Origin: Paracoccaceae bacterium
GTDB taxonomy: Bacteria; Pseudomonadota; Alphaproteobacteria; Rhodobacterales; Rhodobacteraceae
DNA length: 64,000 nt
Assembly (NCBI GenBank): GCA_024742455.1
Contig: JANSYL010000002.1
Location: 62,001 to 126,000 of the forward strand
Direction: 5' to 3'
Every line of letters starts with the position of its first letter. Position 1 is the first letter of the stretch. Below the pieces are notes generated by a model, which saw only the letters and a program-made list of their open reading frames with translations, was not told the origin of the DNA and did not search any database. This document shows positions 20,103 through 41,880 of the stretch, in pieces. Position numbers and translations under genes: made by a program.

Positions 20103-20105
20103 GTG

Positions 20106-20462
20106 ATGAAGAGAGACAACGAGTATCTGAGGGAGATGCTCATAGGCTTCGAAGATGCAGATGATCAGTACATCATGGCCGCAGAGTATATTAGGATGCC
20201 CCCCGAGGAAGCTAAACGGCTCTACCACATCAGACTAGCTAGCGACGCCGGCTTAGTGGTTGAGACAGGAAGCTCCGTCTATCGACTGACAAATCAAGGC
20301 CATGACTACATCGCGGCGATTCGTGATGAAGGTGTTTGGCAGCAGACCCGTGCCGTTGTTGCGGATACTGGTGGCGAAATCACACTCGATTTAATGAAGA
20401 AACTTGCAGTCGGCTTTCTCAAGACAAAAATTGAAAAGCATACCGGTGTCGCGCTGGAATAG
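20106..20462 (+). CDS. DUF2513 protein, probably acquired
   Basis: A 118-residue protein matching DUF2513: MKRDNEYLREMLIGFED at the start, a winged-helix-like middle (HIRLASDAGLVVE, YRLTNQGHDYIAAIRDEGVW), and the C-terminal LMKKLAVGFLKTKI. Family members are common on phages and mobile islands, and their function is unknown. The ATG at 20106 directly follows the pheS stop; a GTG at 20103 is possible. Base composition and codons (many A/T third positions, e.g. AGA, CTA, ATA) differ sharply from the GC-rich neighbours, which indicates horizontal transfer. Confidence 0.85.
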   Translation: MKRDNEYLREMLIGFEDADDQYIMAAEYIRMPPEEAKRLYHIRLASDAGLVVETGSSVYRLTNQGHDYIAAIRDEGVWQQTRAVVADTGGEITLDLMKKLAVGFLKTKIEKHTGVALE

Positions 20463-20488
20463 TTAAGGCTCGGATTAGTAACGAAAGA

Positions 20489-20670
20489 GCAGGGCGAGCG
20501 CCTGCCCGTGGGATGGCGCTGCGGACCCTGCGAGCCTCTCGCTTTATACCCGCCACCTCATTGCTCCAAATGATCGGTGCGCCCAGCCTCCAAAGCGCCA
20601 GCCCGCCGGGACGGCGTCGTCCATTGTCTCTCGGACCAATGGCGAGACAATGAACGACCGCTCGCCCTGC
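20489..20670. repeat. MITE-like element with 12-bp terminal inverted repeats
   Basis: GCAGGGCGAGCG at 20489-20500 is mirrored exactly by CGCTCGCCCTGC at 20659-20670. Inside is a second perfect inverted repeat (CATTGTCTC/GAGACAATG, 20622-20652) and a small stem GCGAG/CTCGC (20530-20542). No protein-coding gene is supported. The symmetry and position beside a foreign gene suggest a non-autonomous mobile repeat. No obvious target-site duplication was seen. Confidence 0.5.
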
Positions 20671-20709
20671 GCGTTTCACGCGCGCACCGGGCGGGTGGAC
20701 GCAAATACT

Positions 20710-20728
20710 GTAGGGCGGGGTTTACCCC
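20710..20728. repeat. Partial GTAGG-GGGG hairpin repeat
   Basis: GTAGGGCGGGGTTTACCCC contains the hairpin GGGG-TTTA-CCCC. It resembles one arm of the pheT/tsaC inverted repeat (GTAGGATGGGGTT at 23497), so both may belong to the same interspersed repeat family. Confidence 0.35.
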
Positions 20729-20811
20729 TCTGTCCCCCGTGCGGCATTGCCCCCCGCCCCGCGGTTGCTCTCGCGCGATGGCGCACCATCTTCCCCGCCA
20801 TGGCCCGCCCG

Positions 20812-21030
20812 ATGTCCAAACGCACCTCCTACCTGATCGTCGGCACCCTCGTCGCGCTGATCGTGACCGCGCATGTATTCATGTGGCTTTCGGACATGGC
20901 CACGGGCGAGAAACTGATGTGGACGATCCTGAACACCATCGGCTGGACGATCATCCTGGCCCCGGTGTTTTTCGTCGACCGCTGGCTTGATGCGATCAAG
21001 GCGCGCAACAGCCGCGACAAGGACGGGTAA
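20812..21030 (+). CDS. Small membrane protein upstream of pheT
   Basis: A protein of 72 residues with two clear membrane helices (TSYLIVGTLVALIVTAHVFMW and a second around MWTILNTIGWTIILAPVFFV) and a short basic tail. I do not recognise a characterised family. The start at 20812 (MSKRTSY) is chosen; an in-frame ATG at 20800 gives four more residues, and neither has a strong ribosome-binding site. It lies 61 bp before pheT and may be co-transcribed with it. Confidence 0.6.
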   Translation: MSKRTSYLIVGTLVALIVTAHVFMWLSDMATGEKLMWTILNTIGWTIILAPVFFVDRWLDAIKARNSRDKDG

Positions 21031-40978: not shown

Positions 40979-41329
40979 ATGGAAGAGCACGAGGAACACC
41001 GCGCGCCCGATTGGCTGGTGTGGGTCCTGGCCGCGTTTTTCGCGGTCATGGCGCTCTGTGCGCTGGCGTTCTGGGCGTCCTCGGCGGTGGTGGCGGCGGG
41101 GGTATCGGGCGTGATATCGGCTGTCGGCCCGGGTGCCATCGCGATCTTCGGCGCGCTGCACATCCCCGCCGCCATCGTCGGTGTGCTGCTGCTGCAATGG
41201 CGCCGCCCGGTGCTGCCGGTGACCTATCGCGTCGCCCTTGAGGCCGGGACCATCTATTTCGGCGGTGCGGTCCTGATCAGCATCTTCTTCAACTATCTCG
41301 CCGTCAGCTTCATGGATCGCTGGCGGTGA
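40979..41329 (+). CDS. Small integral membrane protein (unrecognised)
   Basis: A 116-residue protein with an acidic head (MEEHEEHRAPDW) and three or four membrane helices (LVWVLAAFFAVMALCALAFW, the Gly/Ala-rich SAVGPGAIAIFGALHIPAAI region, and TIYFGGAVLISIFFNYLAV). I know no family for it. GGGAGGATCGAA precedes the ATG. It overlaps the following membrane gene (TGATG), so the pair is an operon divergent from dnaX. Confidence 0.72.
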   Translation: MEEHEEHRAPDWLVWVLAAFFAVMALCALAFWASSAVVAAGVSGVISAVGPGAIAIFGALHIPAAIVGVLLLQWRRPVLPVTYRVALEAGTIYFGGAVLISIFFNYLAVSFMDRWR

Positions 41330-41714: not shown

Positions 41715-41794
41715 AGCCTCTCGGCGCTTTTTTCAAAAGCGCCTGTCGGCCGTCGCATCTTTGCTGCTCAAAGATGCGACGTGGGTGAGAGGCT
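41715..41794. terminator. Twin hairpins at the 3' side of ffs
   Basis: Two perfect hairpins lie side by side: GGCGCTTTT-TTC-AAAAGCGCC (41723-41743) and CGTCGCATCTTTG-CTGCT-CAAAGATGCGACG (41751-41781). They sit between the end of the membrane gene and the end of ffs, which converge. An outer 8-bp arm AGCCTCTC (41715-41722) can also pair with GAGAGGCT at the ffs end (41787-41794). Neither hairpin has a long U-tract, so termination strength is uncertain. Confidence 0.6.
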
Positions 41795-41880
41795 GGACAA
41801 CGACCCAAGCGGGGCTCGTTACGGCTGCTTCCTTCCGGACCTGACCGGGTTGGCGAGGCGCTCGCCCGCGCCAACCTCTC
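41787..41880 (-). ncRNA. ffs: 4.5S signal recognition particle RNA
   Basis: The minus strand carries the universal SRP RNA core GGTCAGGTCCGGAAGGAAGC, with its GGAA tetraloop and the asymmetric loops that bind Ffh. The ends GAGAGGTTGG and CCAGCCTCTC pair to close a single long hairpin of about 94 bases, the small bacterial SRP RNA. Its partner Ffh is not in the window. A well-placed promoter begins 7 bases upstream. Confidence 0.93.

Follow-up and report, generated by a model that had tools for sequence, protein, structure and literature searches.

The window, that is, the whole stretch of 64,000 nucleotides analysed here, comes from a Paracoccaceae bacterium (contig JANSYL010000002.1). It carries a DUF2513 gene between pheS and pheT, followed by a 182-bp element (20489-20670) with two exact inverted repeats.

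20103-20462, + strand: DUF2513 gene, between pheS and pheT (Pfam PF10711, E 3.6e-13)
20489-20500, no strand: 5′ 12-bp terminal inverted repeat, GCAGGGCGAGCG
20659-20670, no strand: 3′ 12-bp terminal inverted repeat, CGCTCGCCCTGC, exact reverse complement of the 5′ one
20622-20652, no strand: inner 9-bp inverted repeat, CATTGTCTC (20622-20630) and GAGACAATG (20644-20652)

The terminal and the inner inverted repeats had been reported in the preliminary description, and both are confirmed letter for letter. Three reading frames overlap the element (20419-20679 on the minus strand, 20577-20990 and 20650-21030 on the plus strand), all of them mechanical calls only. Rfam 15 gives no match at 20380-20780 up to an E-value of 1, and its sole gathering-threshold hit in the window is a bacterial small SRP RNA gene (41784-41880, minus strand; RF00169, 56.6 bits).

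By itself, a 12-bp inverted repeat is weak evidence. Inverted pairs of this length with spacers of 80-250 bp occur 16 times in the window, compared with 0 to 8 times in 20 first-order Markov controls. The folding energy of the plus strand of the element is -99.9 kcal/mol, compared with -71.0 +/- 4.5 kcal/mol for 200 shuffles (z -6.45), and the z-score of the minus strand is -4.96. The element stands above chance because of its folding energy and, above all, because of its copies in its own and in other genomes. BLAST against its own genome finds nine places, the window copy counted, so the element is not a single genomic copy, and other genomes have many copies of both of its parts. One other copy in the genome (L004) matches over nearly the full length. 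Of the remaining places, most are confined to query positions 8-140 or a part of them, two to the 3′ part (115-196), and one to 1-43. In other genera, the matches to the first part stop at query position 135 (window 20614), and query positions 136-180 are matched alone, in whole or in part, by separate hits. Because the homology splits at window 20614 both in the own genome and in other genera, the element falls into two modules. Judged from these alignments, it is a composite of two unrelated repeats, in which a hairpin (module B) lies within a larger one (module A), close to the 3′ foot of the latter. The earlier suggestion of a MITE or structured repeat thus holds as far as dispersal and structure are concerned, but not for a single element, as B is nested in A and shows no target duplication.

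20489-20615, + strand: 5′ part of module A, with stem base (GCAGGGCGAGCG...), variable loop and inner 3′ stem AGCGCCAGCCC...GGGACGG (A model R2; A-only copies align to 20614)
20616-20658, + strand: module B, 43-bp hairpin GTCGTCCATTG...CAATGAACGAC nested in A (B model R1; net +39 bp relative to six A-only copies)
20616-20626, + strand: arm 1 of B (GTCGTCCATTG), pairs with arm 3 or, partly, with arm 2 (99 copies)
20637-20642, + strand: arm 2 of B (CAATGG; short-helix pairing count)
20648-20658, + strand: arm 3 of B (CAATGAACGAC; long-helix pairing count)
20659-20695 (end approximate), + strand: 3′ part of module A, with outer stem CGCTCGCCCTGC and tail hairpin GCGTTTCACGCGC..CACCGGGCGGG, like the tail after A-only copies of three genomes

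The 12-bp inverted ends form the base of the A stem, the inner 9-bp inverted repeat is part of B, and the sequence of A resumes 3′ of B. The A model R2 matches 20490-20648 (+; 86.7 bits, E 3.1e-13), and this match extends into B because the model expects its 3′ stem there. The B model R1 matches 20613-20661 (+; 57.2 bits, E 3.6e-11), a match by construction, the window copy being in the model alignment. A second, weak match to the B model (41164-41208, +; 24.1 bits, E 0.0026), about 600 bp from the SRP RNA gene, could be a decayed B copy.

Module A is about 165 bp long. Its stem has 26 pairs with small bulges, its loop of about 75-85 nt contains a conserved CTTTAT stretch, and its small tail hairpin ends in CCGGGCGG or TCGGGCG in most copies. 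We collected 39 copies from three genomes and aligned 34 of them, leaving out L001, L004, L007, L327, and one L322 copy. Over the 34 copies, the stem is 97.2% paired, compared with 38-46% in slid controls. In addition, six pairs carry changes on both sides, compared with a mean of 1.9 in shuffles (none of 500 reaches six) and 0-4 in slid controls. Within the bacterial family, 87 of 198 genomes have matches to a covariance model of A at E <= 0.01, many of them at least 14; the own genome has 10. Module A is a dispersed long-hairpin repeat family of this bacterial family.

The DUF2513 gene has windows of lower GC content (0.505-0.535) than pheS (0.63-0.67) and had been called a foreign gene that may have arrived together with the element. 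In three further genera (L333, L335, and L336), a homologue occupies the pheS-pheT interval, and in a fourth (L334) it is beside pheT; around a fifth homologue (L337), neither pheS nor pheT is found within the stretch. A homologue is present in 8 of 100 family genomes, the own included, and in several genera the gene recurs, with a patchy distribution, between pheS and pheT. A clear A element lies behind the gene in only one of the five other loci (L336; 104.2 bits, opposite orientation); the match at L335 (11.2 bits, E 0.68) is not counted. Since homologues of the gene are found beside pheS or pheT elsewhere and a clear A only at L336, the histories of gene and element may be separate, and their joint arrival is not supported. 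The window copy of B probably adds a strong stem-loop behind the DUF2513 gene, and nothing more.

Module B is a three-arm hairpin of 41-44 bp, in which arm 1 can pair with arm 3 (long helix) or, in part, with arm 2 (short helix). We collected 151 copies from a choice among the matches listed in family genomes, plus plasmid loci. The terminal pairs were counted in 130 of them, after 11 copies without a recognisable third arm and 10 edge cases or duplicates had been left out. The helices were counted in alignment A2, which comprises the 99 of the 130 copies that have a 3-base spacer and a distinct sequence. RNAalifold predicts no structure for B, and the two named helices were counted after this result. 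In the long helix, 57 cells show changes on both sides, compared with 10-25 in slid controls and 14.9 in shuffles. The shuffle controls take no account of how the copies are related. Ten pairs of this helix have a double change, and one slid control has 11. The short helix is 94.7% paired, compared with 14-53% in slid controls; it has seven cells with double changes, and one slid control has eight. The long helix is well supported, and the short helix shows few double changes. In some copies (L153, L173, and L044), all three arms have changed together.

Across the aligned sequences, the outermost bases of B are seen to vary between copies yet tend to stay complementary. The outermost pair of the long helix is G-C, T-A, C-G or A-T, and it is unpaired in 17 of 99 copies. 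Terminal pair 4 is complementary in 107 of 130 copies (62.9 expected, z 10.7) and terminal pair 5 in 32 (21.4 expected, z 3.8), while complementarity at pairs 6 to 8 is not above chance in the same 130 copies. Among the 31 copies whose 3′ side is CTC/CGC, covariation is seen at pair 4 (z 6.5) and at pair 5 (z 5.4), and pairing ends at 6. The core of these 31 copies is nearly invariant, the terminal covariation notwithstanding. The usual foot of B is CGTCG or NNTCG. Consensus columns 4-7 read C-G-T-C, but in most copies the last three of these bases are paired with arm 3; an RTTCG subclass lacks this tag. The first pairs are mostly G-C, the inner loop has 10 nt, and the tail is mostly CCC or host sequence.

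The B core CCATTGTCNCTCGGACCAATGGCG, with up to three mismatches, is found in 65 of 198 family genomes, compared with one of 198 for the reversed control pattern. A draw of 289 genomes from the class contains four of the family and 285 outside it. Among these 285, two have the core, both with three mismatches, and the control also matches once. B is present in 25 plasmid records, whose genera we take to be Rhodobacterales throughout, and in eight IMG/VR stretches; phage records give no match to B. Exact matches to the core in genome contigs amount to at least 120 stretches, and among the 80 titles listed, one names an organism outside the group (L183, titled Enemella evansiae, an actinobacterium). 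In this contig, 2,500 bases of L012 recur without a single difference, and L012 comes from a genome (G002) placed in the family of the window. Therefore, the title of L183 is probably wrong or its assembly contaminated. In the own genome, the B model gives 10 rows up to an E-value of 1, five of them below 0.01. Four A+B copies, spread over the four contigs C16, C2, C9, and C13, have a common junction and a GAACGAC/GAACGGC 3′ arm (L001, L004, L006, and L008), and the inside of A appears to be missing in L006 and L008. Further B copies of this genome (L343, L345, and L346) lie in two other repeat contexts.

The hosts of B are diverse. On plasmids, B lies in annotated transposase genes of the IS66 and IS3 families, and it is in frame within the annotated IS66 coding sequence. 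In IS genes, B is found in both orientations with respect to the gene. Pfam families rve, IstB, Mutator, and DDE are found beside other copies in a census that covered 27 B copies (77 reading-frame pieces) and some of the 81 copies of the GTCG class (106 pieces), with 22 "other" copies left out. Families other than transposases beside B include LuxR-type (L114, three mismatches to the core) and PRiA4_ORF3 (L055). In addition, divergent B pairs about 300-1000 bp apart occur at L014, L044, L064, and L098, at least some of them in or near transposase genes. A GTA/prophage-type tail gene (Pfam GTA_TIM, phrog_4271) hosts B in three IMG/VR contigs (L299, L302, and L305), at one and the same position. 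Because the proteins of these contigs are 85-87% identical to that of L302 and B has the same in-frame position in them, B has been kept in frame through divergence.

Intergenic hosts are module A, as in the window, and two further repeats. One of these, GGGGGC..GCCCCC..CCCCC, is also found without B in eight of nine genomes searched, and it has 40 matches in G017, compared with two for a control pattern. Under a simple rule, 50 of 130 B copies lie at one spot of this repeat in one orientation; under a loose rule, six are reversed, one copy being in both lists. Many of these B "copies" may be one old composite, not separate insertions. In the form GGGGGC-NN-TGCCCCC-NN-ACCCCC, the repeat occurs frequently between genes in the family (G017, G168, G002, G163, and others), and its duplicated 3′ arm makes an alternative pairing possible, as in B. 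The third intergenic repeat hosts L107, L118, and L343. On sequence comparison, then, B is shown at unrelated sites (transposase genes, the tail gene, intergenic repeats, and A) whose homologues are without B.

By our filter, 22 of the 130 B copies have a homologous empty site, and one empty homologue was kept per copy. The net gain is 36 bp in 4 pairs, 37 in 8, 38 in 6, 39 in 2, 40 in 1, and 22 in 1, the last pair (L061) being explicable only if a further indel is supposed. The filled copies match the empty host with an identity of 0.68-0.95 at bases -20 to -6 and of 0.73-0.95 from +6 outward, but of only 0.09-0.45 at the five bases between, on each side. Taken together, the net gain and the drop in identity indicate that 41-44 bp replace about 5 bp; the pairs of L069, L101, and L068 fit three or four lost bases. 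The idea that the terminal bases of B are a host-derived target duplication was rejected, as they match the empty host poorly (the same 0.09-0.45) and are complementary, not directly repeated. No target-site duplication is seen at B in the 22 filled/empty pairs or in the tail gene, and no strains that differ by B alone were found.

Most empty homologues are only 75-92% identical, and the replaced 5-mer is therefore well fixed in the tail gene only. There, L302, L299, and L305 have 41 bp where relatives have 5 bp (net +36). Among 30 related loci (L351-L380), a pattern rule finds the 5-base empty site in 20, with the 5-mers CTGAT (11), CTGGT (6), TTCAG (1), TTCTG (1), and TTCGG (1); the other 10 fall outside the rule. 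In the best filled/empty pairs, 39 of 40 flanking bases are identical. The filled gene stays in frame, and the insert is readable straight through. At the window, comparison with six A-only copies (L002, L003, L010, L020, L029, and L033) shows that B replaces CAGG (five copies) or CCGG (L020), and the preceding base is also altered. Insertion of B thus appears to swap about five target bases for the hairpin instead of duplicating the target. Selection for insertion in frame, as in Rickettsia palindromic elements (RPEs), was considered when the first empty sites seemed to give a constant +36, and rejected when the larger set gave 36-40 and no frame preference: the gain is divisible by three in 6 of the 22 pairs, intergenic and A hosts included.

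We consider it probable, with some reserve, that the element is a nested composite, in which A is a dispersed long-hairpin repeat and B is a non-autonomous mobile hairpin of 41-44 bp that replaces about 5 bp of its target. In this scheme, B would move as a folded hairpin, supplied in trans. An enzyme would cut the target with a 5-base stagger, the target overhang would be lost and the hairpin joined in, and the complementary ends of B would be made by fill-in at the hairpin foot. IS elements, plasmids, and prophages may carry B between genera. Since the four A+B copies of the own genome share their junction and 3′ arm, B would have nested in A once, and the composite would then have spread or been inherited as a whole.

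Alternatively, the whole element could be a single MITE, the remnant of an insertion sequence after deletion, with 12-bp ends that a DDE transposase recognises. Its exact inverted ends, its size, the lack of an established gene, and the several dispersed copies would all suit such an origin. We nevertheless regard it as very improbable, as the 12-bp ends form the base of a stem with 26 pairs and the homology is interrupted within the element, where A meets B; tested on the empty sites, a MITE with target duplication is rejected for B, where the duplication is absent. A mobile B of a known kind would be a REP moved from single-stranded DNA by a REP-associated tyrosine transposase (RAYT). The genomic record of the enzyme speaks against it: its domain (Y1_Tnp, PF01797) is found in 18 of 198 family genomes and in only 8 of the 65 B-positive ones, leaving 57 without a match, if the sets of 198 genomes in the two surveys are taken as the same. 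PF01797 is also not matched in the genome of the window (G000) or in the B-rich G017, G168, G080, G140, G163, and G002, some of these assemblies being incomplete. To our knowledge, insertion of IS200/IS605 elements does not delete 5 bp, which further counts against this mechanism. Mobilisation by a RAYT is thus disfavoured and, in our estimate, very improbable, in spite of the size of B, its hairpin, its GTCG-like foot, and its intragenic as well as intergenic copies.

Under a further explanation, A and B would be immobile. As conserved RNA structures acting as terminators, as stabilisers of mRNA, or as processing sites, they would be spread passively by segment duplication and by gene conversion between intergenic repeats. 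The paired changes in the stems fit this explanation, as does the concentration of 50 of 130 B copies in a single intergenic repeat, with an almost uniform orientation. It would leave unexplained why B lies in IS genes on either strand and in the tail gene, with precise empty sites, and a terminator or processing site has no obvious reason to be inside coding sequence; we think it unlikely. For B, another possibility is copying between repeats that form hairpins, either by template switching of a polymerase or by break repair, with no dedicated enzyme involved. The loss of target bases, the lack of duplication, the complementary termini, and the hosts, which often are repeats themselves, are what such copying might produce, but flush borders and a loss near 5 bp at unrelated sites argue for an enzyme with a fixed stagger. 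This explanation, too, seems to us rather improbable.

Going beyond the nested composite, we put forward tentatively, and with more doubt than conviction, that B represents a distinct way of DNA movement. A gene-less hairpin without a REP-type partner transposase would replace five bases, its ends would be renewed complementarily at each event, and IS elements, prophage genes, and larger palindromes would be both the places where B lands and its means of transport. To a specialist, the replacement of 5 bp would be the surprise. Transposase genes are interrupted by B, a prophage-type tail gene contains it, and its frequency is high enough to mislead repeat annotation and gene calling in Rhodobacterales.

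The closest published class to B is that of the CGTC-tagged REPs, which include dRS3 of Neisseria and RPE-4 and RPE-6 of Rickettsia in the description by Di Nocera et al. (2013, PMC3733652). According to that description, their stems of 8-9 bp almost always start with A-T pairs, their loops have 4-5 nt, and their tails are mostly CCA. Like these REPs as described there, B is a short palindrome found mainly in Alphaproteobacteria, both between and within genes, with no dedicated transposase known, and one B subclass has a CGTC-like foot. B departs from them in its inner loop of 10 nt, in its first pairs, which are mostly G-C, in the duplicated third arm, and in mostly lacking a CCA tail; the published stem, loop, and tail rules are thus not followed by B. 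The main text of that paper names neither Paracoccus nor Ruegeria, and Rhodobacter, Paracoccus, and Roseobacter are absent from the main text of a 2025 survey of REPs (PMC12306157). In the open-licence literature, a search for the B core string in four spellings found no paper, and topic searches showed no matching description among the papers listed. How palindromic repeats spread without a RAYT is stated as an open question for the CGTC class (PMC3733652). With its precise empty sites, the replacement of about 5 bp, and B-rich genomes without a Y1 domain, B makes such spread testable.

B also resembles the GTAG REPs and BIMEs, being a small hairpin dispersed in and between genomes that forms mosaics with other repeats. 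It differs from the GTAG REPs that have a RAYT in the 57 of 65 B-positive genomes without a Y1 domain, in the 5-bp replacement, and in its three arms, and its foot, usually CGTCG or NNTCG, shows no unpaired GTAG tetranucleotide. RPEs are about 150 bp long and often in frame, according to a 2024 review (PMC10969869). Like them, B lies inside protein-coding genes and is in frame in the tail gene and in the annotated IS66 transposase. Unlike them, B is far from 150 bp (41-44 bp) and its gain is divisible by three in only 6 of 22 insertions, RPE-4 and RPE-6 being compared by their CGTC description alone. The non-autonomous nature, the inverted ends, and the short non-coding copies dispersed in one genome are shared with MITEs, but B has no target duplication and is far smaller; the size of MITEs is usually quoted as 100-300 bp. 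The byp elements and GC clusters of yeast mitochondria are, like B, hairpins of about 40 bp, some of them inside coding sequence. In contrast to the byp elements, the B in the tail gene can simply be read through in frame.
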